Assembly: GCF_016861975.1 (NCBI RefSeq)
Contig: NZ_BOMB01000017.1
Location: 1-64,000 of the forward strand
Reading direction: 5' to 3'
Source: Actinocatenispora rupis
GTDB taxonomy: Bacteria > Actinomycetota > Actinomycetes > Mycobacteriales > Micromonosporaceae
DNA: 64,000 nt
The number at the start of each line of letters is the position of its first letter. The first letter of the stretch is position 1. Below are positions 9,964-38,858 of the stretch, in pieces. The notes beneath the pieces were generated by a model. That model did no database searches. It saw only the letters and a program-made list of their open reading frames with translations, and had not been told where the DNA came from. The translations under genes were made by a program, and so were the position numbers.

Positions 9964-9970
9964 CCCACGG

Positions 9971-10006
9971 CGCCGGGATCCGTTGGTACGCAAGCGGATC
10001 CCGGCG
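9971..10006. terminator. Bidirectional terminator-like inverted repeat
   Basis: CGCCGGGATCCG (9971-9982) and CGGATCCCGGCG (9995-10006) form a perfect 12-bp stem around TTGGTACGCAAG. It fills the 43-base gap between the convergent ATPase and TetR genes and abuts the TetR stop codon. This is the best copy of the GGATCCGTTG repeat family. Confidence 0.75.
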
Positions 10007-10627: not shown

Positions 10628-10701
10628 GACCGCCGATTGTAACTGGACACCTATTGCGCTACAGTCGTCGCGCTACAGCTGTTTTCCAATAAGGAGCGAC
10701 C
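10628..10701. promoter_or_regulatory. Divergent promoter/operator region with repeated GCGCTACAG
   Basis: This unusually AT-containing 74-base region separates TetR and the AhpD-like gene. GCGCTACAG appears twice (10658-10666 and 10672-10680), 14 bases apart, and TGT-N6-ACA is visible at 10638-10649. AAGGAG (10691-10696) serves the GTG at 10702. The repeats are plausible TetR operators; which bases are bound is not shown. Confidence 0.5.
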
Positions 10702-18902: not shown

Positions 18903-18945
18903 TCCGCCGCCTCCCCGCGCGCCGGACGGCACGCCTCCGCCTGAC

Positions 18946-18961
18946 ATTATCGTCTATCGAT
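18946..18961. promoter_or_regulatory. TATCGAT operator between RraA and lyase genes
   Basis: TATCGAT at 18955-18961, preceded by ATTATCG at 18946-18952. It lies in the 95-base divergent region between the RraA-like and heparinase-like genes. It is one of seven copies in and near the cluster and probably bound by the GntR regulator at 28169-28918. No clear -35/-10 pair is seen here. Confidence 0.6.
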
Positions 18962-18997
18962 GGCAGAGGAAACCCGGGCCGACCAGGAGGCGACCGC

Positions 18998-20932
18998 ATG
19001 GCGTCCGTACCGACCGAGCCGGGGCGCGCCCCGCTGACGGACCGGCTCCCCGCGCTGCACGACCCCGTCGTACTGGCGCGGCTGCTCGCCGGTCCCGCGC
19101 CGCTGCCGACCGTCGCCGACCGTCCACTGTGGACCTCGGTACCGCCGGCCGTGCGTACCGCGGTCCTCGCCGACGCCGCCGCGGACCTGACCGAACCGCC
19201 GCCGCGGCTGCTCGCGTCGGACTGGGCGCGCACTTTCCGCGACGGCGACCGCGGCACGTACGAGACGGCGGTGCGGCGGTTGCGCGAGCGGGTGACCCGG
19301 CTGGTACTCGCCGCCGTGGTGACCGGCGACGTGGCGGACGCGAGCGCGGCACCGGACGCCTGCCCGTACCTGGACGGCGTGGTGGACGGGGTGGTACTGC
19401 TGGCCGAGGCGAGTACGTGGTGCTGGGCGCCGCACGACCGCGGTACGGCGGCGCGCGGGGAGACGGTGCCGGACCCGGGCGAGCCGTACCTGGATCTGGG
19501 CGCGGCGGAGGTCGCGGCGCTGCTGGCGTGGACCGACCACGTGCTCGGCCCGCACCTCGACCGGCGGATGCCGGGACTGCGGCGGCGGATCCGGCGCGAG
19601 GTGCGGGACCGCGTGCTGGGGCCGTTCGAACGGATCCGGGACTGGCGCTGGATCGGCGCCGACGGTACGGCGAACAACTGGAACCCGTGGATCCACGGCG
19701 CCGTACTCACCGCCGCGCTGCTGCTCTGCGACGACCCGGTACGCCGCGCGGGCCTGGTCCGGCTCGTCGTCGCCGGCCTCGACCACTACGTCGCGGTACT
19801 GCCCGGCGACGGCGGCCTCGACGAGGGCATCGCGTACTGGTGGCAGGGGCCCTGCCGGCTGCTGGAGGCGCTGGACCTGCTGGCCGAGGTCGGCGGCCCG
19901 GAGCTGGACGCCCGCGACCTGCCGGTACTCGCGCCGCTGCTGCGGTTCCCGCAGCGGATGCACCTCGGCGCCGACTGGTACGTCAACGTCGGCGACGCGT
20001 CGGCGCGGCTGTCGGCCGAGCCGCCGTGGCAGGTGCCGTACCGGTGGGCGGCGCGGCTGGGTCAGCCGGAGACGGCGGCGCACGCGGTGTCGGGCGCGTC
20101 CGGCCGCGCCGTGGCCCCCGGTACCGGGCTGGGGAGGGCTCTCGCGGCGCTCGCCGACCGTGCCTGGTGCGACGCGGTCGCGGCCCCCCTCCCGCCGGGC
20201 GCGGCGCCGTGGCTGGCGGACGCCTGCTGGCTGCCGAGTACGGGGGTGCTCGTGGCACGCGAGACTCCCGGTACGACGCGGGGTCTGGCGCTGGCGGTGA
20301 AGGCCGGCCACAACGGCGAGCACCACAACCACCTCGACGTCGGCTCGTACCAGGTGGCGGTGGACGGGCGGCCGCTGGTGGTGGACGTGGGGCGGCCGAC
20401 GTACACGGCGGAGACGTTCGGACCGCGCCGGTACGACGGGTGGCCGTTCCGGAGCGCCTGGCACACGGTGCCCGAACCCGGGGCCGAGCAGTGCCCTGGC
20501 CGGGAGTACGGGGCGCGCGGGGTCGCGGTGGCGCTCGACGACGGGTCGGCGACGTTGCGCGCGGATCTGGCCGGCGCGTACCCGGTCGGCTCGGTGGCCC
20601 GCTGGATCCGCACGGTGCGGCTGGTCCGCGGGCCCGGGGCGTACGTGGAGGTGGTGGACGAGTGGGTGGACGCCGCCGATCCGGTACTGGTCCGGCACGT
20701 CCTGGCGGGCCGGGTCCAGCACGGCGCCGGCTGGGCGACGGTCACCGGTACGGCGGGGCGCCGGCTGCGGCTGTCCTGGGATCCGGCCGCCGCGGTCGCG
20801 TCGGTGGACCACCGGGAGCTGACGGATCCGTTGCTGCGACGCAGTTGGGGGCAGCGGCTGGCGCGGTTGACGCTGGCGGTCGCGGACGCCGCCGCGGGGC
20901 GGATCGCGGTAGTGGTACGGGACGACCGGTGA
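18998..20932 (+). CDS. Heparinase II/III-family polysaccharide lyase
   Basis: 644 residues without a signal peptide, so cytoplasmic. An N-terminal alpha/alpha-toroid (to about residue 400) carries NNWNPW (226-231) and DEGIAYWWQG, and a C-terminal beta-sandwich begins near HNGEHHNHLDVGSY (438-451), the Heparinase_II_III signature. Such enzymes cleave uronic-acid linkages by beta-elimination, here probably on imported oligosaccharides. ATG 18998 follows AGGAGG. Opens the cluster opposite the RraA gene. The exact PL family and glycan cannot be read from sequence. Confidence 0.87.
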   Translation: MASVPTEPGRAPLTDRLPALHDPVVLARLLAGPAPLPTVADRPLWTSVPPAVRTAVLADAAADLTEPPPRLLASDWARTFRDGDRGTYETAVRRLRERVTRLVLAAVVTGDVADASAAPDACPYLDGVVDGVVLLAEASTWCWAPHDRGTAARGETVPDPGEPYLDLGAAEVAALLAWTDHVLGPHLDRRMPGLRRRIRREVRDRVLGPFERIRDWRWIGADGTANNWNPWIHGAVLTAALLLCDDPVRRAGLVRLVVAGLDHYVAVLPGDGGLDEGIAYWWQGPCRLLEALDLLAEVGGPELDARDLPVLAPLLRFPQRMHLGADWYVNVGDASARLSAEPPWQVPYRWAARLGQPETAAHAVSGASGRAVAPGTGLGRALAALADRAWCDAVAAPLPPGAAPWLADACWLPSTGVLVARETPGTTRGLALAVKAGHNGEHHNHLDVGSYQVAVDGRPLVVDVGRPTYTAETFGPRRYDGWPFRSAWHTVPEPGAEQCPGREYGARGVAVALDDGSATLRADLAGAYPVGSVARWIRTVRLVRGPGAYVEVVDEWVDAADPVLVRHVLAGRVQHGAGWATVTGTAGRRLRLSWDPAAAVASVDHRELTDPLLRRSWGQRLARLTLAVADAAAGRIAVVVRDDR

Positions 20933-20981: not shown

Positions 20982-21023
20982 TTGACACGTACCGGAAATC
21001 GCATAGAGCATCAGTTATCGATA
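20982..21023 (+). promoter_or_regulatory. Promoter with TATCGATA operator before beta-helix gene 1
   Basis: TTGACA (20982-20987), 16 bases, then TAGAGC (21004-21009) give a sigma-70-like promoter. TATCGATA follows at 21016-21023, overlapping the expected transcription start, a position suited to repression. The layout is repeated ahead of the binding-protein gene (22984-23026) and the 640-residue protein gene (30931-30976). Confidence 0.62.
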
Positions 21024-21043
21024 GACGCTAGGGATGGTGACTG

Positions 21044-22957
21044 ATGCGACGTACTGTCCGGATCCTCACCCTGCTCGGCGCGCTGGCCGTCGGCGCGGTC
21101 CCGGCCTCGTCCGGGGTCGCCGCCGCGGCCGGCCCGACCACCTACTACGTGTCGCCCGCCGGCGACGACACGGCCGCCGGCACCACCACATCGGCGCCGT
21201 TCCAACACATCCAGCGGTGCGCGGAGGTTCTCGTCGCCGGGGACACCTGCGAGGTCATGTCCGGTACGTACCGGGAGACGGTGACGCCCGCGGCCTCCGG
21301 TACGTCGGGCGCGCCGATCACCTACCGGGCGTACCCGGGGGCCAGCGTGCGGGTGGACGGCACGGACCCGGTGACCGGCTTCGCCCAGGTCACCGCCGCG
21401 GACCTGGCCGGACTGGAGGGCAACGACCCGTACCTGACCGGGTCCGGTTTCGCGACGGCGGTCGGCGCCGGGCAGGTCTACCGCACGACCGTGTCGCTGA
21501 ACGCCGACGCCAGCCTCGACCAGATCTTCGTCGACGACCAGATGTACGTGCAGGCGCAGTGGCCGTACCCGGGGCTGGATCTGCTCAACCCCACCGTGGA
21601 ACTGACCCAGGCCGGCACGACGAACACCACCATCGCGGACGCCAACCTCACCCGACCCGCCGGGTACTGGGACGGCGCGACCGTCCTGATGAGCTACTGG
21701 TACGCGACGCAGACCGGTACGGTGGCGAGTTCCGCGCCGGGGTCGGTGACGCTCGCGTCGGCGGCGGGCTGCGCCGGGATCAACGCCGGCGACACCCGGT
21801 ACGCGCTGTCCGGCAAGCTCGGCGAGCTGGCCCACCCCGGCGAGTGGTACTACGACCCGCCCACCGGCCACCTCTACGTGTACGGGAACCCGTCCGGGCA
21901 CACGGTTCTGGCCAAGTCCCGGACGTACGGCTTCGACCTGCGGGCGGCGAGTTACACGACAGTACAGGGGATCGACCTGTTCGGTTCGACCATCGCGACG
22001 TCCGGTACGGGGAACGTCGTCGACGGCGTGCACGCCCGCTACGTCTCGCACTACACCCAGCTCACGGCGCCCGGCAGCGCCTGCAACGTGTCCGTCGGCG
22101 TCACCACCAGCGGCATCCAGCTGCGCGGTTCGGGCAACGTGGTACGCAACAGCAGCGTCGACGGCAGCGCCGGTACCGGGATCCTGTTGGCCGGCACCGG
22201 GAACACCGCCGACGACAACAAGGTCAGCAACGTCGACTACCTGGGGACGTACGCGTCGGGCATCGCGGTGACCGGCAGCGGCGCCGTCGTCACCCACAAC
22301 ACGGTGTCCGACGTCGGCCGGGCCGCGGTGTCGGTGGTGTGGGGGAGCGGGTTCAGCCCGGTGACCGTCGCGTACAACGACCTGTCCGGCTACGACCACC
22401 TGAGTACGGACGGCGCGGCGGTCTACCTGTGCTGCAACGCCGACATGGCCGGTACGAGCGTGCACCACAACTGGCTGCACGACGCGGCGAACATCCCGGG
22501 GATCAACCCGTTCGCGGAGGCCGGCGCGTACGCCGACAACGGGCAGCGCGACATCGCGTTCTACGACAACGTCGGCTGGAACAACCTGCACGGCACGGTG
22601 ATGCTGCACGGCCAGGCCGGCGTCAGCACCGACAACCTGGTGTACGACAACGACGGCGGCGTGTACCTGCTGGGTATCACGAGCGCGGCGGGCACCCGGG
22701 TGGTGAACAACCTCGGCGACGTGGCGAACCCGCCGGACGCGAGTACGGGGATCACGATCTCGCACAACCTGCCGGCCGCGACCGACCCGCTGTACGTCGA
22801 CGCGGCGGGGCACGACTACCGGCTCCAGGCCGGCTCGCCGGCGCGGAACGCGGCCGAGCCGATACCCGGGATCACCGACGGCTCAACGGATCCGACCCCG
22901 AGCCTGGGCGCCTACCAGTACGGGGCGGTGCGCTGGGTACCCGGCGCCACGTGGTGA
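21044..22957 (+). CDS. Secreted right-handed beta-helix protein 1
   Basis: 637 residues. A Sec signal peptide (about 1-28, ending VAAAA) precedes TYYVSPAGDD, the start typical of parallel beta-helix carbohydrate enzymes. Repeated turns such as GIQLRGSGNVVRNSS, GILLAGTGNTADDN and GIAVTGSGAVVTHNTV show the coil. The end, YRLQAGSPARNAAEPIP ... GAYQYGAVRW, is the standard closing strand. Probably an extracellular polysaccharide lyase or hydrolase acting on the cluster substrate; no catalytic residues could be assigned. Paralogue of the gene at 26144. Transcribed from the promoter with TATCGATA just upstream. Confidence 0.83.
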   Translation: MRRTVRILTLLGALAVGAVPASSGVAAAAGPTTYYVSPAGDDTAAGTTTSAPFQHIQRCAEVLVAGDTCEVMSGTYRETVTPAASGTSGAPITYRAYPGASVRVDGTDPVTGFAQVTAADLAGLEGNDPYLTGSGFATAVGAGQVYRTTVSLNADASLDQIFVDDQMYVQAQWPYPGLDLLNPTVELTQAGTTNTTIADANLTRPAGYWDGATVLMSYWYATQTGTVASSAPGSVTLASAAGCAGINAGDTRYALSGKLGELAHPGEWYYDPPTGHLYVYGNPSGHTVLAKSRTYGFDLRAASYTTVQGIDLFGSTIATSGTGNVVDGVHARYVSHYTQLTAPGSACNVSVGVTTSGIQLRGSGNVVRNSSVDGSAGTGILLAGTGNTADDNKVSNVDYLGTYASGIAVTGSGAVVTHNTVSDVGRAAVSVVWGSGFSPVTVAYNDLSGYDHLSTDGAAVYLCCNADMAGTSVHHNWLHDAANIPGINPFAEAGAYADNGQRDIAFYDNVGWNNLHGTVMLHGQAGVSTDNLVYDNDGGVYLLGITSAAGTRVVNNLGDVANPPDASTGITISHNLPAATDPLYVDAAGHDYRLQAGSPARNAAEPIPGITDGSTDPTPSLGAYQYGAVRWVPGATW

Positions 22958-22983: not shown

Positions 22984-23026
22984 TTGACCTCCGGCCGGCA
23001 CGCGTGCTTTGATCTCGACTATCGAT
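22984..23026 (+). promoter_or_regulatory. Promoter with TATCGAT operator before the importer operon
   Basis: TTGACC (22984-22989) and TTTGAT (23008-23013), 18 bases apart, followed by TATCGAT at 23020-23026. Position and order match the other promoters of the cluster. A GGAGGT at 23045 serves the binding-protein start. Confidence 0.6.
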
Positions 23027-23059
23027 TATTCATGGCTTCGTAACGGAGGTGTCGTCGAG

Positions 23060-26143: not shown

Positions 26144-28105
26144 ATGACCCAACGCCCGCCGTACCTGCGGACTGCCGTCACCGTCCTGGTGGCGGCCGTG
26201 TCCGCGGTGGCCGCCACCGTACCGGCCGCCGCCGCACCGAACGCCGGCCACACCTACTACGTCGCCCCGTGGGGCCACGCGACCGGCGGCGGTCACTCGG
26301 CCGCCGCGCCGTTCCGGCACGTCCAGCAGTGCGCCGACGTGATGGTGGCCGGCGACACCTGCGAGATCCTTTCCGGCACGTACGCCGAGACCGTGGTACC
26401 GGCGCACTCCGGTACCGCCGCGAAGCCCATCACGTACCAGGCGGCGCCGGGCGCGCACGTGACGCTGACCGGTACCGAACGGCTGACGGGCTGGTCGGCG
26501 GTGACCGCCGCGGACGTCGCCGACATCGCGGCGACCGACCCGTACGCGGCGGACTCGGCGTTCAGCGCGGCGGTCGGCGCCGGCCACGTGTACCGGACGC
26601 ACGCCGATCTCGGCGAGGACGTGACGACCGTGCAGGTCTTCACCGACGGCCGGATGGACGTGGAGGCGCAGTTCCCGTACCCGGGGCTGGATCTGCTGAC
26701 ACCGACCCTGGAACACGCCGGTGCCGGCAGCGACGGCGCCACGATCGCCGACGCCGGCCTGACCCGCCCCGCCGGCTACTGGACCGGCGCCCGCGCCCTC
26801 ACCGGCTACTGGTACGTCAGCGCGACGACGACCGTACAGAGCTCGCAGGTGGGGTCGGTGACGCTGGCCGCGGCGCCGCCGTGCGTGCACAAGGTCGTGC
26901 CCACCGACACCCGGTACGCGCTGGCCGGCAAGATCGGCGAGCTGGCGCACCCCGGGGAATGGTTCTACGACAAGGAATCCAGGGACCTGTACGTCTACAG
27001 CGAGGACGGCGTCGCCGGGCACGACATCGAGGCGCGCACCAGGCCGCTGGCGTTCGACCTGACCGGCGCCAGCCACACGACCGTCCGCGGCATCGGCGTG
27101 TTCGCGTCCACCATCCGCACCGGTACGGCCAGCACCGGCGTGCTGCTCGACCGGATCACCGGCCGCTACCTGTCGCACTACACCGACATCACCCGCGGCG
27201 CCACCGACTGCGGCAGTACCGTGACGCGCGGCGTCGCCGACACCGGCATCGTGCTGGACGGCACCGGGAACCGGATCGTCCACAGCGACCTCGCGTACAG
27301 CGCGGGGAACGGGATCGCCTTGCGTGGCAACGGAAACAGCGCGACCGACAACGTCATCCACGACGTCGACTACCTCGGCACGTACGCCGCCGCCATCGCC
27401 GTGCAGGGCAACACGCAGACCGTCACCCACAACACCCTGTACCGGCTCGGCCGCAGCGGCATCAACCTGCAACTCGACGGCGACACGCCGGGCCCGGACC
27501 GCATCGCGTACAACGACATCTCCCAGTACGCCCGGCTCAGCCTGGACACCGCCGCGATCTACACCTGCTGCGGCGTCGACATGCGCGGCACGTCCGTCGA
27601 CCACAACCTCCTCCACGACGGTACGCCGACACCCGGCGTCAACCCGTTCGCCGTGGCCGGGGTGTACGCGGACAACGGGCAGAGCAACATGCTCATCGCG
27701 AACAACGTCGGCTGGAACAACCTGGAGGGGACCGTGATGCTCAACGGCCTCGGCTCCGGCTCGCACGACAACCGGGTCTACAACAACACCGGCGGCATGA
27801 CCCTCTTCTACGTCAAGGGACCGGGCCAGTCGACCGGCACCACCGTGTACAACAACATCGGTCCGATCCGGGGGCTGGACGGCGCCACCGCCGGCGGCAT
27901 GGTGCTGTCGAACAACCTGCCGGCCGACGTCGACCCGCTGTTCGTCGACCCGGCGGCGCACGACTACCGGCTCACGGCCGCCTCACCCGCCCGCAACCAG
28001 GCGATCCCGGTACCGGGCGTCACCGACGGGTCGACCGACGCCGTACCGAGTCTCGGCGCCTACCAGTACGGTGCGCCGATGTGGACGGCCGGCGCGCGGC
28101 GCTGA
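26144..28105 (+). CDS. Secreted right-handed beta-helix protein 2
   Basis: 653 residues, with a signal peptide (about 1-31, ending AAAAP) and then HTYYVAPWGHATGGG. The whole length aligns with the gene at 21044: shared blocks include CADVMVAGDTCEILSGTY, YPGLDLL, GKIGELAHPGEWFY, DVDYLGTYA and NNVGWNNL. Coil repeats such as GIVLDGTGNRIVHSDL mark the helix. It is the last gene of the importer operon, 34 bases after the permease, with AAGGGAG before the ATG. Probably an extracellular depolymerase with different specificity from its paralogue. A strong terminator follows. Confidence 0.83.
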   Translation: MTQRPPYLRTAVTVLVAAVSAVAATVPAAAAPNAGHTYYVAPWGHATGGGHSAAAPFRHVQQCADVMVAGDTCEILSGTYAETVVPAHSGTAAKPITYQAAPGAHVTLTGTERLTGWSAVTAADVADIAATDPYAADSAFSAAVGAGHVYRTHADLGEDVTTVQVFTDGRMDVEAQFPYPGLDLLTPTLEHAGAGSDGATIADAGLTRPAGYWTGARALTGYWYVSATTTVQSSQVGSVTLAAAPPCVHKVVPTDTRYALAGKIGELAHPGEWFYDKESRDLYVYSEDGVAGHDIEARTRPLAFDLTGASHTTVRGIGVFASTIRTGTASTGVLLDRITGRYLSHYTDITRGATDCGSTVTRGVADTGIVLDGTGNRIVHSDLAYSAGNGIALRGNGNSATDNVIHDVDYLGTYAAAIAVQGNTQTVTHNTLYRLGRSGINLQLDGDTPGPDRIAYNDISQYARLSLDTAAIYTCCGVDMRGTSVDHNLLHDGTPTPGVNPFAVAGVYADNGQSNMLIANNVGWNNLEGTVMLNGLGSGSHDNRVYNNTGGMTLFYVKGPGQSTGTTVYNNIGPIRGLDGATAGGMVLSNNLPADVDPLFVDPAAHDYRLTAASPARNQAIPVPGVTDGSTDAVPSLGAYQYGAPMWTAGARR

Positions 28106-28168: not shown

Positions 28169-28918
28169 TCAGCGCCGCCGCGTACCCCTGCCCTTGGCGG
28201 CCTTCTTCCCGTTCCGCTCATCGGGCACCGGCGAACGCCCGGCGGCGTGCGCCGCGAACGCCTCCGCGGCCTTCTCGCCGTCCCCGTCCCGCAACAGGGA
28301 AACGAGCCGGCCGTGCTCGTCGGCCATCGCGTGCCAGTCGCCCTCGAAAAGCGGATCGGCGATGGCGTGCAGCGCGCGCAGGCTCGGTTCCAGAACCTCC
28401 CACATGCGGTACAGGAACGGGTTTCCGGCGATCCGGCAGACCAGGGTGTGAAACGCGATGTCGGCGTCCCGGAACTTGCCGAGATCGTTGACCGCCACCG
28501 CCCGGTGCATCCGGTCCACCAGCTCGCCCAGCTCGGCCAGGTGCTCGTCGGTGAGCTGGCCGGCGGCGAGCCCGGCGGCCAGTCGCTCCAACGGTTCCCG
28601 TACCTGACGGGCGTGCTCGGCGTCCTTGCTGGAGATCTCCACGACGAAGTTCCCGCGCCGCGGTACGTGCATGAGCAGGCCCTCGCGGGCGAGCTGCTTG
28701 ACGGCCTCCCGTACGGGAGCCTGGCTCACGCCGAGCCGGCGCGCGATCTCCGATTCGACCACCCGTTCATTGGGGGCCAGCTCGCCGTCGACGATGGCCT
28801 GCCGGAGCAGTTCGTACACCCGGTCGGAGATGAGGGTGTTGCGGAGCCGGTCCTTGTTCGACGCGAGCGTGGAGGCGAAGCCGCTCGGCTCGTCGGTCGT
28901 TTCTCGTTTCGATGCCAT
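28169..28918 (-). CDS. GntR/FadR-type (FCD) regulator of the cluster
   Basis: 249 residues. A winged helix (about 27-95: VYELLRQAIVDGELAPNERV, ARRLGVSQAPVREAVKQLAREG) is followed by an FCD effector domain (about 105-230) with metal-ligand candidates in DADIAFHTLVC and the later MADEHGRLV. The tail is Lys/Arg-rich. TATCGATA lies in its own upstream region (28979-28986), and the same motif occurs before the neighbouring operons, so it likely represses the cluster and itself until a sugar-acid ligand binds. ATG 28918. Confidence 0.87.
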   Translation of the reverse strand: MASKRETTDEPSGFASTLASNKDRLRNTLISDRVYELLRQAIVDGELAPNERVVESEIARRLGVSQAPVREAVKQLAREGLLMHVPRRGNFVVEISSKDAEHARQVREPLERLAAGLAAGQLTDEHLAELGELVDRMHRAVAVNDLGKFRDADIAFHTLVCRIAGNPFLYRMWEVLEPSLRALHAIADPLFEGDWHAMADEHGRLVSLLRDGDGEKAAEAFAAHAAGRSPVPDERNGKKAAKGRGTRRR

Positions 28919-28978
28919 GAATTCCCCATCACGCGATACCGGATCCACCCCGATGATACGCGCCGATCGCCTAACCGG

Positions 28979-28986
28979 TATCGATA
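28979..28986. promoter_or_regulatory. TATCGATA operator upstream of the GntR gene
   Basis: The perfect palindrome TATCGATA is 61 bases ahead of the GntR start, between it and the esterase stop. It suggests autoregulation. The 89-base gap holds no other recognisable element. Confidence 0.6.
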
Positions 28987-29007: not shown

Positions 29008-29997
29008 TTATCCGGCCGCCTTTTCCCACTGGCGGGCGAGCCAGTCGAGCTTCACGACCTCGTGCGCCGGACCGCCGCCCTCGTGGTCGTTGAACGGGTA
29101 CGCCCGGATCCGCTTGCGCGCCGGGTCGAGCCCGGTCAGCGCGCCGTAGTGGTTGTACGCGGCGTACCCGGTGGAGGGCGGGCAGATGTGGTCCATCAGG
29201 CCGACCGAGAACAGCGCCGGCGCGGTCGCCCGCCGGGCGTGCGCGGCACCGTCCAGATAGGACAGTGTGCGGGCCACCGTGTCCGCGTGCTCCCGGTGCA
29301 GCTTCACGTACTGCGTGACCTCCACGTACGGCGGGCGGTCGGTGATCGTGGTCGCGCGCGGGAAGTGGCACAGGAACGGCACGTCGGGCAGCACCGCCGC
29401 GAGGTCCGGTACGAGACCGGCGGCGGCGAGCGCGATCCCGCCGCCCTGGCTGGTACCGGTCACCGCGACGCGCGTCGGGTCCACCGCCGGATGCGTACGC
29501 ACGGCGTCGACCGCGCGTACCGCGTCGGTGTAGAGCCGGCGGTAGAAGTGGCGGTGCGGGTCGAGGATGCCGCGGGTGAGGAAGCCGGGCGCGGCGACGT
29601 CGCCGGTGGCCGGGTCGGGGTCGGGCGTCTCGGCGCCCTGCCCGCGGGTGTCCATCACCAGGTGCGCGTACCCGGCGTCGGCCCAGAGCCGCTTCTCGTG
29701 CGGCACCCCGCGCCCGCTGCCGTACCCGAGGTACTCGATGACCGCGGGCAGCGGACCGGTACGGGTGACGGGCAGGTGGAGCCACGCCCGTACCGGGTGC
29801 CCGCCGTACCCGCGGAAGGTGACGTCGAGCGTGTCGAGGGTGGCCAGCCCATTGGGTACCGGATCGAACGTGGCGGCCACGTCGGACGCGCGGTGCTCGG
29901 CGAGGGTCTTGGCCCAGAACTCGTCGAAGTCGGCCGGCTCGCCGAGATCGGGCAGGTAGCGCTCCAGCTCGGCGAGGGGGAGGTCGAACTGTGCCAT
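29008..29997 (-). CDS. Acetylxylan esterase / cephalosporin-C deacetylase (CE7)
   Basis: 329-residue alpha/beta hydrolase of carbohydrate-esterase family 7. The nucleophile motif GTSQGGG (about residues 178-184), the acid in GLMDHICPP and the His in NDHEGGG form the triad. Also typical are the N-terminal DLPLAELERYLPD and the oxyanion segment EYLGYGSGRG. No signal peptide, so it deacetylates imported acetylated oligosaccharides in the cytoplasm. ATG 29997 gives the conserved N-terminus. A TATCGAT site lies just upstream at 30038. Confidence 0.92.
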   Translation of the reverse strand: MAQFDLPLAELERYLPDLGEPADFDEFWAKTLAEHRASDVAATFDPVPNGLATLDTLDVTFRGYGGHPVRAWLHLPVTRTGPLPAVIEYLGYGSGRGVPHEKRLWADAGYAHLVMDTRGQGAETPDPDPATGDVAAPGFLTRGILDPHRHFYRRLYTDAVRAVDAVRTHPAVDPTRVAVTGTSQGGGIALAAAGLVPDLAAVLPDVPFLCHFPRATTITDRPPYVEVTQYVKLHREHADTVARTLSYLDGAAHARRATAPALFSVGLMDHICPPSTGYAAYNHYGALTGLDPARKRIRAYPFNDHEGGGPAHEVVKLDWLARQWEKAAG

Positions 29998-30037
29998 GGT
30001 GTCGGGTCTCCGCGGTCGGGTCGAGCGAATCATCGCC

Positions 30038-30044
30038 TATCGAT
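30038..30044. promoter_or_regulatory. TATCGAT operator upstream of the esterase gene
   Basis: TATCGAT 41 bases before the esterase start, in the 60-base space between the amidohydrolase stop and the esterase ATG, both read leftwards. The esterase may therefore have its own promoter under the same regulator. Confidence 0.58.
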
Positions 30045-30057
30045 CAACGTTGGCAGT

Positions 30058-30906
30058 TCAGCAGGGCCGGGTGAGCGTTGTCAACCGACGCAGCCGGTAC
30101 ACCCGCACCGGGGTGTCGTGGCGCACGCGCCGGCGCTCCGCCGCGGTGAGGCCGGCGAGGCCCGATCCGGCCAGCCGCAACGCCTCCGCGCGGGAGCCCG
30201 CCGGCAGGCAGATCGGCCAGTCCGAGCCGAGGACGCAGCGGTCCGGGCCGACCGCGTCGACCACCCGCCGCACCAGTTCCGCCACCCGCCCCGCCGGTAC
30301 GCCGCGCTGCTGCGTCAGCAGTCCGGAGATCTTCACCACCACGCCGGCCCGGCCCGCCGCGTACGCGAGGTCGCGGAGCCAGTCGGACGGGTCGTCGGTG
30401 GTGAGGTTGCCCGGGTTGCCGAGGTGGTCGACGACCACGGTCAGCCCCGGGTACCGGTCGGCGACGTCGGCCGCGGTCCGCAGCGCGCCGGCGCCGAGGT
30501 TGAGATCGAGCGCCATCCCGTACTCGGCGAGCACGTCGAGCAGGGCGCGGGCCGGTTCCGGTGTGGCGGACCAGGTCCGGCCGCCGAGGCGCATCCCGTT
30601 CGGCCGGTCGTCGGCGAGGTCGTCGAGCAGCGCGCGGAACCGGTCCGGCCCGGCGTCGCCGTACACGTGCAGGTTCCCGACGTACCCGGCGACGGTGTCG
30701 GGGTGGGCGGTGCGGGCGGCGCGCAGGGTGTCGGTCTCGCCGGCGTCGCCGCGGGACGCCTCCACCAGTACGGTGCCGGTCACGTCCAGCCCGGCGCCGG
30801 ACCGCGCCAGGTCCGCCACCCGGTACGCGCGGTGGTGCGGTGATCCGGGCCGGATCCACGGGTACCCGTCGGCGGGGTTCCACACGTGTGCGTGGCAGTC
30901 GATCAC
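30058..30906 (-). CDS. Amidohydrolase (sugar-lactonase type)
   Basis: 282-residue TIM-barrel amidohydrolase of the Amidohydro_2 family. It opens with the metal-binding IDCHAHVWNP. Further ligands are in VVVDHLGNPG and VLGSDWPICLP. This subgroup includes L-fucono-1,5-lactonase and related sugar-lactone hydrolases, which fits the aldose dehydrogenase at 32922. Start GTG 30906 sits directly before the IDCHAH motif. Divergent from the 640-residue gene across 96 bases with a TATCGAT operator. The precise lactone is inferred only. Confidence 0.84.
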   Translation of the reverse strand: MIDCHAHVWNPADGYPWIRPGSPHHRAYRVADLARSGAGLDVTGTVLVEASRGDAGETDTLRAARTAHPDTVAGYVGNLHVYGDAGPDRFRALLDDLADDRPNGMRLGGRTWSATPEPARALLDVLAEYGMALDLNLGAGALRTAADVADRYPGLTVVVDHLGNPGNLTTDDPSDWLRDLAYAAGRAGVVVKISGLLTQQRGVPAGRVAELVRRVVDAVGPDRCVLGSDWPICLPAGSRAEALRLAGSGLAGLTAAERRRVRHDTPVRVYRLRRLTTLTRPC

Positions 30907-30930
30907 GGTCGCGTCCTCCCGCGGTGGGTG

Positions 30931-30978
30931 TTGACACGCCAGGGCGGCAGGATGATGCTAGCCATCGGTTATCGATCA
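30931..30978 (+). promoter_or_regulatory. Promoter with TATCGAT operator before the 640-residue gene
   Basis: TTGACA (30931-30936) and GATGCT (30954-30959), 17 bases apart, then TATCGAT at 30970-30976 (within TTATCGATCA). Same geometry as 20982-21023. It serves the rightward gene at 31003; the divergent amidohydrolase may share the operator. Confidence 0.6.
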
Positions 30979-31002
30979 GCAATCACCCGGGAGTCATCCG
31001 CG

Positions 31003-32925
31003 ATGGTCAGCGCAGCGCGAGCCGACGACGCACCCGTACCGGCCGGCACGCCGGAGGTACGGGCGGTGCGGCCGGTGACCACTCCGCCGGTGTGGGCGAC
31101 CCTCGAACGCGAGCTGTTCGCCAGGCAGGACAAGGCATGGCGGGCCTTCGCCGAGAAGTACACGGAGGGCGACGGGCGGCTCGTCTTCCGGGACATGCTC
31201 GGCCGCGGCACCGACGACCGGGACGGCGTGGACGACTTCTACGAGCCGTTCTTCACCTGGCCGACGCTGTATCTGCTCGGCGGCGGCGTGGACGTCCTGA
31301 CCGCGGCGTACCGGCACTGGCGGGGCGTGACCGCGCAGCTCACCGAGATGGGGATGCTGCGCGACGGGATGGACCGCGGGTACGACTGGTTCCACCAGGG
31401 CGAGGGCATGCTGCTGTTCTACGGGCTGTGCCTGGCCCTGCCGGACGACGCGGAACTGCGCGCGACCGCGGTGCGCTTCGCCGACGCGTACCTGCCGGGC
31501 GGGCCGAACTACGACCCGGAGTACCGCGTGATCCGCGCGCCGCACGTCGGCGCCGACGGCCCGCGCTGGGGCTTCAGCGACCACGACACGCTGTTCCCGT
31601 GGAGCACCGCGCTGTGCCCGTACGGGCTGCCGCTGGACTGGATCGCCGAGGCGGCACCGTTCGACGAGCTGGTCGCGTCGCCGGCGCGGGCCCACGCGTA
31701 CGGGCGGGCCATGTGGGAGCGGATGGGTCGCGGCGACACGGTCGTCAACCTGGCCGCCACCAGCCTCGTCACCAACGCGTACCTGGCGGGCGGCGACCGG
31801 CGCCACGCCGACTGGGTCGCCGAGTACGTGGGGGCGTGGCGGGACCGGCTCACCGACCACGAGGTACTCCCGGACAACGCCGGTCTGCACGGCGTGGTCG
31901 GCGAACACCTCGACGGCCGCTGGTACGGCGGGCACTACGGCTGGTCGTGGCCGCACGGGTTCCACTCGGTCGGGCCGGCGGCGCTGATCGGCGCGACGAA
32001 CGCGCTGCTGGTCACCGGCGACCGCGGTTTCCTGGACCTGGCCCGCAACCCGCTCGACGCGGTCCTGCGGCAGGCCCGCCAGCTCACCGAGCACGACCTC
32101 GGTACTCTCGGGCGCCGCTGGCGTCCGCACCTGCGCGCCATGCCGGGCGACCGTACGTTGATGGTTCCGTTGCGGCACAACGATTCCGGCTGGTTCGACC
32201 ACACCGTACCGGCGACGCAGATCCCGGTGGCGCTGTGGCAGCTCGGCCGCGAGCCCGAGGACCGCGACCGGGTCGAGACGCTGCGGGCCGGCGCCGGCTG
32301 GGACTGGGGCGCCGTGCACGTGCAGCGCACCAAGGAGGAGGCCGGCCACGAGGAGCCGTGGTACGAGTACCTTGCCGGGCGCAACCCCGAGTACCCGGAG
32401 CGGATGCTGCGCGCGGCGCTGGCGGTGTGCGCCGAGCGGGTCGCGGCGATCGACGCGGACCCGCTCGACCCCGCGGTCGGCCCGGACGCGCTGGACATCC
32501 ACCACTGGCAGGAACGCAACCCGGTGGTCACGGAAGCGTTGCTGCACCTGACGACCGGCTCCCCGCAGGTGCTGTACAACGGTGGTCTGGCCCAGCTGCA
32601 CCTCCGGTACCACGACGGGGAGCTGCGCCGGCCGGGGCTGCCCGCCGACGTGGCCGCGCTGGTGTCCGACACCCGTACCGACCACACCGTCGTGGACCTG
32701 GTGAACGTCGGCGTCGCGGCGCGCTCGCTCGTCGTCCAGGCCGGCACGTACGCGGAGCACGCCGTGCGTACGGTCGCGGTCGACGACGGGCCACCGGAGC
32801 GCGCGACCGGGCCGTACGTGGTGGTGCGGCTGCCCGCCGCCACCCGGGTACGGCTGACGCTGACGATGGAGCTGCGCGCCGGGGCCCCGACGTACCGGGC
32901 GCCATGGCGGGAGGATGCGCGATGA
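31003..32925 (+). CDS. Unrecognised 640-residue enzyme-like protein of the cluster
   Basis: I do not recognise a family with confidence. 640 residues, no signal peptide, no membrane helix. The first 540 residues are rich in helices with aromatic/acidic/His motifs typical of alpha/alpha-toroid carbohydrate enzymes: GYDWFHQGEG (126-135), GFSDHDTLFPW, HYGWSWPHGFHS (311-322), PLRHNDSGWFDHT and IHHWQERNP (about 499-507). The last 100 residues look like a beta-sandwich. ATG 31003; its stop overlaps the aldo/keto reductase start. The TATCGAT promoter upstream ties it to the cluster. A lyase or unsaturated-glycosidase role is possible but unproven. Confidence 0.78.
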   Translation: MVSAARADDAPVPAGTPEVRAVRPVTTPPVWATLERELFARQDKAWRAFAEKYTEGDGRLVFRDMLGRGTDDRDGVDDFYEPFFTWPTLYLLGGGVDVLTAAYRHWRGVTAQLTEMGMLRDGMDRGYDWFHQGEGMLLFYGLCLALPDDAELRATAVRFADAYLPGGPNYDPEYRVIRAPHVGADGPRWGFSDHDTLFPWSTALCPYGLPLDWIAEAAPFDELVASPARAHAYGRAMWERMGRGDTVVNLAATSLVTNAYLAGGDRRHADWVAEYVGAWRDRLTDHEVLPDNAGLHGVVGEHLDGRWYGGHYGWSWPHGFHSVGPAALIGATNALLVTGDRGFLDLARNPLDAVLRQARQLTEHDLGTLGRRWRPHLRAMPGDRTLMVPLRHNDSGWFDHTVPATQIPVALWQLGREPEDRDRVETLRAGAGWDWGAVHVQRTKEEAGHEEPWYEYLAGRNPEYPERMLRAALAVCAERVAAIDADPLDPAVGPDALDIHHWQERNPVVTEALLHLTTGSPQVLYNGGLAQLHLRYHDGELRRPGLPADVAALVSDTRTDHTVVDLVNVGVAARSLVVQAGTYAEHAVRTVAVDDGPPERATGPYVVVRLPAATRVRLTLTMELRAGAPTYRAPWREDAR

Positions 32926-33830
32926 GCCTGGACCTGCCACCCCTCGGCATCGGTACGGCGCCGCTCGGCGGGCTGTTCCGCGACGTGTCCGAGCAGGACG
33001 CGGCCGACACGGTGGCCGCCGCGGCCGCTGCCGGCGTCACGTACTTCGACACCGCCCCGCGGTACGGGCACGGTCAGGCCGAAGAGCGCCTGGGCCGGGC
33101 GCTGCCCGCAGTACCGGATGCGGTGGTGTCGACGAAGACCGGCTGGCTGCTGCGCCCCGGCCGTACGGTCGTGCCCGACTGGTCCGAGCGCGGCGTTCGC
33201 GCGTCGCTGGAGTCCAGCCTCGACCGGCTCCGGCGCGAGTCCGTCGACATCCTGTACCTGCACGACGCCGACGACGCGGCCGACGCCGTCCGGGCCACCG
33301 CGTACCCGGCGGTGCGGCGGTTGCGGGACGAGGGGCTGGTGCGCGCCGTCGGCTTCGGGATGAACCACAGCGCCCCGCTCGCCGCGTACGTGGCGGAGTA
33401 CGAGCCGGACGTGGTGCTCATCGCCGGCCGGTTCTCGCTGCTCGACCACGACGCGCTGGACACGCTGCTGCCGCTGTGCGCGCGCACCGGTACCGCGGTG
33501 GTGGTGGGCGGGGTGTTCAACACCGGGCTGCTCGCCGACCCCGCGCCGGACGCGATGTTCAACTACCGGCCGGCGCCGGCCGAGCAGCTCGCGCGGGCAC
33601 GGCAGTGCCGTGCGATCTGCGCCGAGTACGGGGTGGGGTTGGCGGCGGCGGCGATCCAGTTCCCGTTCCTGCACCCCGCCGTACGGTCGGTGGTGGTGGG
33701 CTGCCGGTCCGCCGCGGAGGTACGCGACAACGCCGACGCGTTCCGTACGCCGGTGCCGGACGAGCTGTGGGTCCGCCTCGCCGACGCCGGTTTCGTCCCG
33801 CGCGGGCTGCTGGACGTGGCCGCGGGCTGA
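32922..33830 (+). CDS. Aldo/keto reductase (aldose 1-dehydrogenase type)
   Basis: 302-residue AKR. The N-terminus GIGTAPLGGLFRDVSEQDA and YFDTAPRYGHGQAEERLG (about residues 42-59, with catalytic Asp and Tyr), the Lys in STKTG and His in LYLHDAD complete the tetrad. The subgroup includes D-threo-aldose/L-fucose 1-dehydrogenases, which oxidise sugars to lactones with NAD(P)+. ATGA overlap with the preceding gene. Together with the amidohydrolase it suggests a sugar to lactone to aldonate route. LysR follows convergently after 3 bases. Confidence 0.87.
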   Translation: MSLDLPPLGIGTAPLGGLFRDVSEQDAADTVAAAAAAGVTYFDTAPRYGHGQAEERLGRALPAVPDAVVSTKTGWLLRPGRTVVPDWSERGVRASLESSLDRLRRESVDILYLHDADDAADAVRATAYPAVRRLRDEGLVRAVGFGMNHSAPLAAYVAEYEPDVVLIAGRFSLLDHDALDTLLPLCARTGTAVVVGGVFNTGLLADPAPDAMFNYRPAPAEQLARARQCRAICAEYGVGLAAAAIQFPFLHPAVRSVVVGCRSAAEVRDNADAFRTPVPDELWVRLADAGFVPRGLLDVAAG

Positions 33831-33833
33831 CGG

Positions 33834-34691
33834 TCAGAGCGGCCGGTGCAGCCGGTCGCCGGCGGCGAGCAGCGCGGTCCGCAGCGCGGTGACCGGCCCG
33901 CCCTCGTCGGTACCGCCGAGCAGGACGAACTCGACGTCGCCGAGGTCCGGCAGCCGGTGCTGCGCCGGCAGTACGCGCAGGCCCGGTGGTACGAGGCTGC
34001 GCGCGTGTGCGGTGACCCCGAGCCCGGCCACCGCCGCGGCACGTACGCCGGACAGGCTGCCGCTGGTGCAGGTGACCCGCCAGCGGCGACCGTGCCGTTC
34101 GAGTACCTCCATGGCGCGGGCGCGGGTGATCGACGGCGGCGGGTACACGATGAGCGGCACGGGACTGCCGGGGTCGGGGCCGGGCGCGTCGCCGCCGATC
34201 CAGGCGAGCGGCTCCCGCCACACGAGCTGGCCGCGCGTCTCGCCGGCGGGCCGCTTGGCGAAGACCAGGTCCAGCTCGTGCCGGTCGTACAGCTCGTGCA
34301 GGACGCCGGAGAGCCCGACGGTCAGTTCCAGGTCGACGTGCGGGTGGCTGGACCGGAAGTTCCGGAGGATCTCGGGCAGCCGGGTCAGCACGAAGTCCTC
34401 GGACGCGCCGAACCGGACCCGCCCGCGTAGCTCGGCGGCGGCGAAGTAGTGCTCGGCGCGCTGGTGCGCGGACAGGATGCTGTCGGCGAGCGGGACGAGC
34501 GCGGCGCCGTCGGTCGTGAGGACCACCGAGTGCGTGTCGCGGGCGAACAGTGGGCGGCCGGCGGCGGCTTCCAGGCGGCGGATCTGTTGGCTCACGGTCG
34601 ACTGCCGCACCCCGAGGCGGCGCCCGGCCTGGGTGAAGTTGCGGGTCTGCACGACCGCGAGGAACGTCCGCAGGAGTACCGGGTCGAACAT
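33834..34691 (-). CDS. LysR family regulator
   Basis: 285 residues. The winged helix covers about 1-62 (FDPVLLRTFLAVVQTRNFTQAGRRLGVRQSTVSQQI), followed by a LysR substrate domain beginning LRGRVRFGASEDFVLTRLPEIL. ATG 34691 is used; another ATG two codons upstream is equally possible. Divergent from the symporter-like gene, so this is its likely target. It lies at the edge of the glycan cluster, but its promoter lacks the TATCGAT motif, so it probably belongs to another system. Confidence 0.88.
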   Translation of the reverse strand: MFDPVLLRTFLAVVQTRNFTQAGRRLGVRQSTVSQQIRRLEAAAGRPLFARDTHSVVLTTDGAALVPLADSILSAHQRAEHYFAAAELRGRVRFGASEDFVLTRLPEILRNFRSSHPHVDLELTVGLSGVLHELYDRHELDLVFAKRPAGETRGQLVWREPLAWIGGDAPGPDPGSPVPLIVYPPPSITRARAMEVLERHGRRWRVTCTSGSLSGVRAAAVAGLGVTAHARSLVPPGLRVLPAQHRLPDLGDVEFVLLGGTDEGGPVTALRTALLAAGDRLHRPL

Positions 34692-34790
34692 GCCCATCAC
34701 GATAGGCGTTCACAGTCATCGCGGTGAACACGGTTCACAATGACGTCAGCCCGGCGGAGAATCGTCTCGTACGTCCGGCGGAAGGTGGCC

Positions 34791-35795
34791 ATGCTCCGGA
34801 TCCTCGCGCGCCTGCGCATCGACCCGTACCTGCTGGCGATCCTCGGTACGGTCGCCCTCGCCGCCCTGCTGCCCGCCCGCGGTGTCGGCGCCGTCGTCGT
34901 CGGTCACGTCACCGACCTCGCCATCGCCCTGCTGTTCTTCCTGTACGGCGCGCGCCTCTCCGCGCAGACCGCCCTCGCCGGCGCCAAGCACTGGCGACTG
35001 CACCTGGTCGTCTTCGCCTCGACGTACGTGCTGTTCCCGGTACTCGGGATCGCCGCGCGGGTGCTCGTGCCCACCGTCCTGACCCCCCAGCTGTACGTCG
35101 GGGTCCTGTTCCTGTGCTGCCTGCCGTCGACGGTGCAGTCGTCGATCGCGTTCACCGCCGTCGCGAAGGGAAACGTGGCCGCCGCGATCTGCTCCGCCTC
35201 GTTCTCGAACCTGATCGGCGTGGTGATCACGCCGCTGCTGGTGGCGGCGCTGCTGTCCGGGCACGGCGCGAGCGGCTTCTCGCTGGGCTCGGTCGAGCAG
35301 ATCCTGCTGCAACTGCTCGTACCGTTCGTCGCCGGCCAGCTGCTGCGCCGCTGGATCGGCGGATTCGTACAGCGGCACGACAAGGCGCTCAAGCTCGTCG
35401 ACCGCGGGTCGATCCTGCTGGTGGTGTACACGGCGTTCTCGGCCGGGGTGGTCGCCGGCATCTGGCACCAGCTCTCGCTGCCCCGGCTCGGCGCGCTGCT
35501 CGCGGTCGACTGCGCCCTGCTCGCCCTCGTACTCGTGGCCACGTCGGTCGCGTCGCGGCGGCTGCGGTTCGGCCGGGCGGACCGCATCACGATCGTGTTC
35601 TGCGGGTCGAAGAAGAGCCTCGCGTCCGGCCTGCCGATGGCGAGCGTACTGTTCCCGGCCGGTGCGATCGGCCTGGCCGTACTGCCGCTCATGCTGTTCC
35701 ACCAGATCCAGCTGATGGTGTGCGCCTGGCTCGCCCAACGCTGGGCGAGCCAGGCACCCGCCGAGGATCAGGCCGAGGCGTCCGCCGCGGCCTGA
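34791..35795 (+). CDS. Bile-acid:sodium symporter (SBF/YfeH-like) family carrier
   Basis: 334 residues and about ten helices. ALLFFLYGARLS, CCLPSTVQSSIAFTAVAKGN (about residues 114-133) and SKKSLASGLPMASVLFP are typical of the SBF-like YfeH group, where the crossed helices bind sodium and an organic anion. ATG 34791 follows GGAAGG; the frame runs back to 34740 without conservation. Divergent from LysR. Substrate unknown, probably an organic acid or sterol-like anion. Confidence 0.85.
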   Translation: MLRILARLRIDPYLLAILGTVALAALLPARGVGAVVVGHVTDLAIALLFFLYGARLSAQTALAGAKHWRLHLVVFASTYVLFPVLGIAARVLVPTVLTPQLYVGVLFLCCLPSTVQSSIAFTAVAKGNVAAAICSASFSNLIGVVITPLLVAALLSGHGASGFSLGSVEQILLQLLVPFVAGQLLRRWIGGFVQRHDKALKLVDRGSILLVVYTAFSAGVVAGIWHQLSLPRLGALLAVDCALLALVLVATSVASRRLRFGRADRITIVFCGSKKSLASGLPMASVLFPAGAIGLAVLPLMLFHQIQLMVCAWLAQRWASQAPAEDQAEASAAA

Positions 35796-37199: not shown

Positions 37200-37323
37200 G
37201 ACATGGGATGTCGCCCGGGCGTACGCGGGGGATCGGGGTCGGGTGGATTGGCGGGTGTCTCGGCTGGTTCGGCCTGGTTGAGCGGACTCGCCCGCCCCGC
37301 CCTCCGGTACGACATGGGACGTC
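37200..37323. promoter_or_regulatory. Two GACATGGGAyGTC dyads before the second GntR gene
   Basis: GACATGGGATGTC (37200-37212) and GACATGGGACGTC (37311-37323) are 111 bases apart. The first is a perfect 5-bp palindrome around GGG; the second differs at one base. Only 40 bases separate the second from the GntR start at 37364. They are good operator candidates for that autoregulated repressor. Confidence 0.62.
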
Positions 37324-37363
37324 GGGGCTAGACTCGCGCCGGTACCTCGGGGAGGTGGGCGCG

Positions 37364-38029
37364 ATGACCGATCGGGACGCGGCGTTGCAGGCACGGATCG
37401 TCGGGCTGATCCACGACCGCGGGCTCGGCCCCGGCGCCCCGCTGCCCACCGAACCGCAGCTCGTCGACCTGCTCGGCGCCAGCCGCAACAGCGTACGGGA
37501 GGCGGTGCGGGCGCTGCGCGCGCTGGGCATCGTGGAGATCCGGCGCGGTCTCGGCATGTTCGTCGGCGAGGCGCCGTTGTCGGTGCTGACCCCGTCGCTG
37601 TCGTTCCGGATCCGGGCGGGCGACGGCGGCGACGTCGGCTCGTTGCGCGACCTGGTCGAGGTACGCGAACTGTTGGAGGTCGGGCTGATCGGCCAGGTCG
37701 CCGGCACGTTGAGCGCCGCGCGGCTGGCCGCGCTCGACGCGCTGGTCCGGCGGATGGGCGAGGACCCGGAGACCGACCGCGCCTTCCACGCCCTGCTGTA
37801 CGAGTCGGCCGGCAACGCGCTGGTGCTGCAACTGATCCAGCTCTTCTGGGACGTGTACCACGACGTGGAGCCGACGCTCGGGCCGCCGGAGGACCGGGCC
37901 GCCGAGATCGAGGCCAACCACGACCGGATCGTGGCCGCCCTGCGCGCCGGTGACGCGGCCGCCGCGCAGGACGCGATGCGCCGGCACTTCACCGACGTCA
38001 AGGCGCGGATCTCCCGTGCCGCACGCTGA
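37364..38029 (+). CDS. GntR/FCD family regulator
   Basis: 221 residues. The winged helix spans about 8-75 (VGLIHDRGLGPGAPLPTEPQL, LLGASRNSVREAVRALRALG) and the FCD domain about 90-215 (DLVEVRELLEVGLIG, HDRIVAALRAGDAAAAQDAMRRHF). ATG 37364 is preceded by GGGGAGG. The downstream DUF3626 gene starts inside its 3' end, so they are cotranscribed. It likely represses this pair through the two dyads upstream. The effector is unknown. Confidence 0.9.
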   Translation: MTDRDAALQARIVGLIHDRGLGPGAPLPTEPQLVDLLGASRNSVREAVRALRALGIVEIRRGLGMFVGEAPLSVLTPSLSFRIRAGDGGDVGSLRDLVEVRELLEVGLIGQVAGTLSAARLAALDALVRRMGEDPETDRAFHALLYESAGNALVLQLIQLFWDVYHDVEPTLGPPEDRAAEIEANHDRIVAALRAGDAAAAQDAMRRHFTDVKARISRAAR

Positions 38030-38858
38030 CCCGTACGGTGCGGCCGTGGCGCGGGCGCTGCGGCACGTGGCGGCGGTGTCGTCCGGCCCACCGCTGGATC
38101 CCGCGCTGCGGGTCACCCTCGCCTTCCACCCCGACCGTCCGGTACGCGGGGTGCCGGTGCTGCGCGCGCTCGCCACCGACGGCGTGTACCGCTCGCAGTT
38201 CGTCACGGGGGTGAGCAACGGCGGGCTCACGGCGTACCCGGGCGGCGACCGGTGGCGGTGGGAGAGCCGCATCTTCGGCGGCGCGTACGACGAGGCGCCG
38301 CCGCACGCTCGCCCCGTGTACGGCGCGCTCAACGTGCGCGGCCGTACGGTCGGCGCGGCGCCCCGGTTCGGCTCGGCACACCTGCGGCTGCGCCCCGCGA
38401 CGCTCGCGCGCACCACGTTCTGCTACCCGGACAGCGTCTTCGACCCCACCGATTTCGGTACGGCCACGGCGATGTCGTTGCTCGCACTGGCCGCCGCCGA
38501 CCGGCGCGACGCGCTCGACGACTACATCGAGGCCCAGGTGCACGGCCCCGTACTGCTCGCCGACGACGTCGAGGCGGTCGTCCTCGACCCCTGCTACCGC
38601 GGCACCGACGTCGCGGCGGCGGCGCGCGAGCTGCCCTGCCCGGTCGAGTGGCACGGCGGCTTCCGGCTCACCGTGGCCGAACTGCGCCGCCACCCGGAGT
38701 ACCGCGGGCCGGAGTACGTCGGGCTCGGTGCGGCGATCGCCGTCGACGGCGTCCTCGACCCCCGCGTACTCGGCGACGCCGCCCGGTCCGGCCGGTACGA
38801 CCCGCAGGACCTGAAACGCGTCTGGCACCACGTCGCCCGCTTCGGCGCCCCCGACTGA
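38016..38858 (+). CDS. DUF3626 protein
   Basis: 280 residues of the DUF3626 family, recognised by LAFHPDRP, DGVYRSQFVTGVSNGGLTAY and RWRWESRIFGGAYD (about residues 60-85), and YCHP-like YGALNVRG. Function unknown in the family as I know it. GTG 38016 overlaps the GntR gene by 14 bases; a GTG at 38046 is a shorter option. No signal peptide or membrane helix. Coupled to GntR, hence probably switched by the same ligand. Confidence 0.8.
   Translation: MPHADPYGAAVARALRHVAAVSSGPPLDPALRVTLAFHPDRPVRGVPVLRALATDGVYRSQFVTGVSNGGLTAYPGGDRWRWESRIFGGAYDEAPPHARPVYGALNVRGRTVGAAPRFGSAHLRLRPATLARTTFCYPDSVFDPTDFGTATAMSLLALAAADRRDALDDYIEAQVHGPVLLADDVEAVVLDPCYRGTDVAAAARELPCPVEWHGGFRLTVAELRRHPEYRGPEYVGLGAAIAVDGVLDPRVLGDAARSGRYDPQDLKRVWHHVARFGAPD

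Follow-up and report, generated by a model that had tools for sequence, protein, structure and literature searches.

We found that a gene of Actinocatenispora rupis, located at 31003-32925 on the + strand of the 64,000-nucleotide stretch analysed (here called the window), encodes a 640-residue protein, P0001, which appears to have no family in the catalogues searched and which may, in our evenly balanced judgement, found a new family of glycoside hydrolases or lyases common to bacteria and haloarchaea. Such an enzyme would open the core linkage of imported oligosaccharides that contain L-fucose/L-galactose or uronates, and would feed an oxidative route through an AKR and a lactonase; in actinobacteria, a dedicated GntR-type operator would mark the regulon.

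The orphan gene and its product

The reading frame of the orphan gene is open from 30886 in the list of open reading frames, and translation of 31003-32925 gave 640 residues with no internal stop; the start codon at 31003 is putative, and the starts of the relatives were picked by script. The sequence-only reading had pointed to three clear motifs and to ATGA coupling with an AKR gene, and both observations held: the motifs, among them GYDWFHQGEG and IHHWQERNP, begin at residues 126, 311 and 499, and the stop codon of the orphan gene (TGA, 32923-32925) overlaps the start codon of the AKR gene (ATG, 32922-32924). The frame is evidently not a chance one, judging from relatives that share 48-73% identity with P0001 over most of its length in the best 80 of 340 loci.

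With hmmscan, the best Pfam match of P0001 had an E value of 0.23 and scored 12 bits against a cut-off of 27 bits, and no match to NCBIfam was found; a phmmer search of PDB sequences gave a best E value of 0.14, which is not credible, and its matches to a kinase, a dehydratase and other proteins were dismissed as chance. Among 28 aligned members (P0001 and 27 relatives), seven Pfam families and one NCBIfam family were matched, all at E values of 0.025 or weaker, and the best single values (0.028 for Pfam and 0.025 for NCBIfam) each came from one member and concerned unrelated families. Neither P0001 nor the 28 members reached any curated Pfam-A or NCBIfam cut-off. An identity as DUF4232 was rejected, the match (E value 0.23 in P0001) being present in 3 of the 28 members with a best value of 0.12, far below the cut-off. 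The Pfam models of GH76 (PF03663) and GH47 (PF01532) were not matched by the 28 members, and PF07470 (GH88/GH105) was absent from the families that they matched at E <= 1; when a GH47 profile was to be built, none of 296 genomes gave a match above the cut-off. In the literature searched, no description was recognised as this family. P0001 and its 27 relatives thus appear, by sequence comparison, to be without a family in Pfam, NCBIfam or the PDB sequences, in line with the sequence-only reading, in which no family had come to mind.

A crude check of N-terminal hydropathy flagged 3 of the 28 aligned rows, barely above the threshold and without a basic start. Because of this outcome, the cytoplasmic location of the actinobacterial members, which is putative and in our reading the most likely one, is a reading rather than a test. 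Tat-like leaders were seen by eye in the Asticcacaulis and Sphingobium copies, of which the hydropathy check flagged that of Asticcacaulis only. The two alphaproteobacterial copies (9722-11554 in locus L092 and 11734-13575 in L093) look Tat-exported by eye and lie directly after an MFS transporter gene.

Predicted fold and structural neighbours

AlphaFold2, supplied with a 28-row alignment, modelled the whole protein with a pLDDT of 86.2 and a pTM of 0.90, and the toroid alone (residues 28-533) with values of 85.3 and 0.89. P0001 is thus confidently predicted to consist of an alpha/alpha toroid (residues ~28-533) followed by a C-terminal beta domain (~534-623), and the helix list may be read as seven outer-inner hairpins preceding a seven-strand domain at 534-623. 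Both models, and the toroid proteins that are their nearest solved folds, favour the toroid plus beta domain that had been guessed from the letters.

In Foldseek searches with the predicted model, AGE epimerases ranked at the top (E 6e-05, TM 0.35/0.52). VIA-align on the toroid gave Z values of 15.0 for GH47 (1x9d, rmsd 4.2, 358 residues aligned), 14.3 for GH76, 13.7 for GH88, 13.7 for AGE and about 13 for LanC-type folds, a search with the whole model being alike, and mostly helical models can reach values of 13-15 by chance, without relationship. The nearest solved folds (GH47, GH76, AGE epimerases and GH88) are remote, with Z values of about 13-15 and 7-16% identity, and we would say that such neighbours indicate a toroid, not which family of toroids.

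Profile comparison by hhalign with sets representing DUF2264, AGE, GH88, GH127, GH76 and GH78 gave probabilities of 0.5-2.9%, the GH127 set being used without L114 (which has a stop codon) and the GH88 set without one empty row, leaving 3. This is a weak test: among 15 control pairs drawn from six known toroid families, AGE-GH76 and GH127-GH76 reached 61%, but the other 13 gave at most 13.3%, so that the silence of the orphan family says little and leaves room for remote kinship. The figures do imply that the orphan family is less close to any of the sets than AGE and GH76, or GH127 and GH76, are to each other.

Invariant residues

The toroid residues that do not vary over 36 rows (actinobacterial, haloarchaeal and alphaproteobacterial) include six Asp, two Glu and one His (D74, D77, D78, E81, D128, H131, E134, D245 and D420), eight Trp (W129, W271, W279, W307, W314, W397, W412 and W453), and Y163, Y170, N249, Y275, R282, Y312, R348 and N506. 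D171 and D340 were invariant in an 18-row set only, as were E585-H586 in the beta domain, and no invariant Cys was present in either the 18 or the 36 rows. H318, H500 and a KEEAGHEE stretch are striking by eye and are lost in distant members.

Active sites of toroid enzymes usually lie in the loops that lead from outer to inner helices. In the model, D74, D77, D78, E81, D128 and D245 fall in loops before presumed inner helices and E134 starts such a helix; the catalytic acids should therefore be expected among D74/D77/D78/E81, D128, E134 and D245. Counting against a catalytic-pocket reading, D420 is in a helix, and both D340 and D420, invariant in the 18 rows, are outside the presumed active-site loops. 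A sugar pocket would call for acids and aromatics like the invariant ones, which argues against a non-catalytic carbohydrate-binding or regulatory toroid, or a non-sugar enzyme of the LanC-like type. LanCL2, GCR2 and lanthipeptide-synthetase domains do align with the model at Z values of about 13, but the loci described below read mostly as sugar or sugar-acid metabolism, and we regard this explanation as quite improbable.

The same residues bear on whether P0001 is an AGE-type sugar epimerase or isomerase acting on an imported sugar ahead of oxidation. In favour of such a function, AGE-type epimerases top the Foldseek lists, and three toroid histidines (H131, H318 and H500) are invariant in 28 mainly actinobacterial rows. 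However, H131 alone is kept over 36 rows, compared with four His columns conserved at 85% or more in 9 AGE rows, and the AGE Pfam model had no match in the 28 members, making an epimerase very unlikely.

The gene cluster in the window

The AKR gene that follows the orphan gene (32922-33830, +) encodes a protein that is closest, among PDB sequences, to L-galactose dehydrogenases (E 4e-30). Upstream and in the opposite orientation lie genes for an Amidohydrolase 2 protein (PF04909; 30058-30906, -), weakly like L-fucono-1,5-lactonase (67 bits against a cut-off of 400), an acetyl xylan esterase-type protein (PF05448, E 2e-100; 29008-30033, -) and a GntR/FCD regulator (28169-28984, -). These are preceded on the + strand by genes for a right-handed beta-helix protein faintly like a xylosidase (3vst) and like GH141 (26144-28105), an ABC importer permease (PF00528; 25249-26109), a second permease in an open frame that contains the true start internally (PF00528; 24037-25242), the binding protein of a sugar ABC importer (PF01547; 23060-24307) and a second right-handed beta-helix protein (21044-22957); both beta-helix proteins have signal-peptide-like N-termini by eye. 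Farther to the left, a PL33-like gene (18998-20929, +) is divergent from one for an RraA-like aldolase family protein (18111-18947, -). The PL33-like protein matches crystal structures 8r6z/8r75, among others, at E 9e-58, and since it has no obvious signal peptide by eye, it may be intracellular. In PMC11848413, structures such as 8r6z/8r75 are identified as PL33, and one Curtobacterium PL33 is described as inactive on its tested substrate panel.

Several genes lie around the cluster. A DHDPS-family protein (15860-16828), possibly a sugar-acid aldolase, has no relative in the 80 loci; a LysR regulator gene divergent from one for an SBF-like transporter adjoins the AKR gene (33834-35795); and a further GntR/FCD regulator gene overlaps a gene for a DUF3626 protein (37208-38855). 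The source genome has 14 matches to PF02746, none of them within the window.

Distribution of relatives

Relatives of the orphan protein are encoded in 340 stretches of genome contigs, of which the best 80 were examined; by their record titles all 80 are from organisms that we take to be actinobacteria. We divided these 80 into clade I (28 loci at 60% identity or more) and clade II (52 loci). The gene is carried by numerous bacteria of soil and by halophilic archaea. Among sampled whole genomes, the source genome included, 4 of the 200 taken from the order had the gene, as did 2 of the 296 taken from the phylum. It was also found in 17 of 72,556 plasmid records (3 actinobacterial, 12 haloarchaeal and 2 alphaproteobacterial), the haloarchaeal copies sharing 34-38% and the alphaproteobacterial copies 29% identity with P0001; eight regions of these 17 matches were read for their neighbourhoods, and in seven annotated plasmid regions the relatives are called hypothetical protein.

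A shared operator

The sequence TATCGAT, taken in the sequence-only reading for a promoter, is present at 30970-30976; a search of 30880-31060 showed no sigma-70-like promoter, and the promoter was rejected in favour of an operator. The heptamer is the centre of a 20-bp palindrome, ATCGNNNATCGATNNNCGAT, which occurs with one mismatch at 30964-30983, where the amidohydrolase and orphan genes diverge. Further copies lie before the acetyl-esterase/GntR gene pair (30032-30051, one mismatch), before the second beta-helix gene (21010-21029, two mismatches) and between the divergent RraA-like and PL33-like genes (18949-18968, two mismatches), and a weaker operator-like site with three mismatches precedes the binding protein gene (23014-23033). 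At up to three mismatches, the window contained six matches, two of them overlapping at 21003/21010, compared with 0.98 expected, and the sites at 18949, 21010, 23014, 30032 and 30964 each stand before a gene of the cluster. The source genome (7.83 Mb, 96.8% complete) had six sites at up to two mismatches, four of them in the cluster, compared with none in a reversed control; the two others (on C34 and C38) were taken as chance, one being inside an open reading frame with a helix-turn-helix match and the other between ACT-type and pro-kumamolisin-type genes.

A copy with no more than one mismatch was found upstream of the orphan gene in all 28 clade I loci. The ATCGAT core was likewise upstream in 28/28 clade I loci, compared with a background frequency of 6%, and none of 51 clade II loci had it there. 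At up to two mismatches, there were 68 matches in 451,507 bp of clade I and 11 in 875,268 bp of clade II, compared with one in a single Markov control of clade I. Of the matches in clade II, all but one represent a single near-identical site in 10 of the 52 loci, about 3 kb before the orphan gene (e.g., at 4801 in L043 and 4925 in L059), so that some of clade II may use a related operator, although not directly at the orphan gene. The palindrome is better read as a candidate operator shared by the genes of the cluster than as a promoter; these genes may form a closed regulon that it marks, and its putative reader is likely the GntR/FCD protein encoded among them.

Gene context in relatives

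Neighbours were counted in flanks of up to 8 kb, where the contig allowed. In clade I, an AKR gene lay downstream on the same strand within 275 bp in 28/28 loci, and an amidohydrolase gene in the opposite orientation was present in 26 (25 of these within 300 bp), a GntR regulator in 26, a binding protein in 22 and an esterase in 16. Among the 52 clade II loci, we found a beta-helix/GH141-like protein in 34 (about 29% identity), an amidohydrolase in 23, RraA in 15, GH95 and AKR in 11 each, SDR in 10, ADH in 8, GH106 in 7, GH29 in 4 and AXE1 in 3; in 19, an ABC permease match was within 300 bp of the orphan gene. GHric was excluded from this tally, being counted in 2 of the 52 by tblastn compared with 20 loci by clustering, and two clusters of neighbour proteins (c14 and c18) look like shadow open reading frames.

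Single loci gave further clues. The amidohydrolase of L165 scored 117 bits against the L-fuconolactonase model (cut-off 400); in L003, an adjacent FAH protein resembles 2,4-didehydro-3-deoxy-L-rhamnonate hydrolase (313 bits, below the cut-off of 500); and in L163, two enolase-superfamily proteins with an AKR are 5-8 kb from the orphan gene. A KdgD of L092 scored 431 bits, above its cut-off, and L093 has an annotated KdgD and a galactonate dehydratase. Near orphan relatives are also a mannonate dehydratase with a TRAP transporter in L087, and GH4, GH3 and 'pectate lyase' genes in L088, L090 and L091. On the haloarchaeal plasmids (L087-L091 and L094), the family lies near TRAP or ABC importers, IclR regulators or genes of the sugar-acid dehydratase type, depending on the locus. 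What the loci have in common is a route that breaks down L-deoxysugars, L-galactose or uronates by oxidation, and this conserved context supports the putative carbohydrate-active role that had been suggested earlier.

In a rival reading, P0001 would be an unsaturated-uronyl hydrolase working like GH88/GH105, or an oligosaccharide lyase, and would remove or create a 4,5-unsaturated uronic acid from lyase products. The PL33-like lyase in the same regulon, the KdgD or mannonate dehydratase near some distant members, the invariance of R282 and R348, and the presence of GH88 structures among the nearest folds (1vd5, Z 14.2/13.5; 2fv0, Z 13.8/13.7) are all consistent with such an activity. However, a PL33-like gene occurred in 2 of the 28 clade I and 0 of the 52 clade II loci within flanks of up to 8 kb, so that we rejected PL33 as a general partner of the orphan gene, and hhalign, a weak test, gave no profile link to GH88. 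We consider this activity unlikely.

Proposed role

The reading that we prefer, and hold to be an even call, is that the orphan proteins are a putative new carbohydrate-active family on an alpha/alpha toroid and that P0001 is a cytoplasmic exo-acting glycoside hydrolase feeding an oxidative route. In this scheme, the secreted beta-helix enzymes would cut an acetylated polysaccharide containing deoxysugars or uronates, the ABC importer would take up the resulting oligosaccharide, the esterase would deacetylate it, and the orphan protein would cleave its core linkage in the cytoplasm; the released sugar would then pass to the co-translated AKR, acting as dehydrogenase, and to the amidohydrolase, acting as lactonase, for oxidative, non-phosphorylating breakdown. 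We infer from fold, residues and context that P0001 is an enzyme and a hydrolase, as well as its substrate, the compartment of each step and their order. The orphan gene is constant while the known glycosidases vary, suggesting action on a core linkage, a lead to be read with the loci having been chosen for carrying that gene.

Some observations count against this glycoside hydrolase. Known fucosidase and rhamnosidase families are already beside the orphan gene in some loci, and an AKR gene is present in just 11 of the 52 clade II loci. The sugar is not fixed, because the AKR and the amidohydrolase score far below the NCBIfam cut-offs, and the neighbourhoods of distant members fit uronates no less than deoxysugars. 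A family that is widespread, confidently folded and unnamed, and whose regulon and operator are defined, is a ready target for a new CAZy-type family: the partner genes restrict the class of substrates to L-sugars or uronates that are catabolised by oxidation, while the operator gives a way to find the inducer.

Comparison with known systems

GH47 alpha-mannosidases, which have an (alpha/alpha)7 fold, gave the best VIA-align Z over the toroid (15.0 over 358 residues, near the chance level for helical models), but share 8-16% identity with the orphan protein among the matches listed, have no Pfam match to it and are not known to have a beta domain of its kind. GH76 endo-mannanases and GH88/GH105 enzymes resemble the orphan model in their toroid (Z about 13-14.5), but there is no Pfam match or profile similarity, identity is about 10%, and they are not known to have the C-terminal beta domain. 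AGE/cellobiose 2-epimerases and YihS, the top Foldseek matches (E 6e-05 and weaker), have the toroid in common with the orphan protein, in the latter by prediction. AGE epimerases have conserved catalytic histidines in the toroid, and this pattern is not kept in the orphan family, in which one His (H131) persists over 36 rows, compared with at least two expected of an AGE enzyme. GH127 beta-L-arabinofuranosidases, which combine a toroid with beta domains and have a conserved Cys cluster, ranked 17th in Foldseek (E 2.5e-03); they have three invariant Cys in six rows, whereas the orphan family has none, and hhalign gave 0.5%. Finally, PL33 and other heparinase II/III-like lyases, to which the orphan protein has no sequence match, have a toroid plus beta architecture, and one such lyase is encoded in the same regulon.
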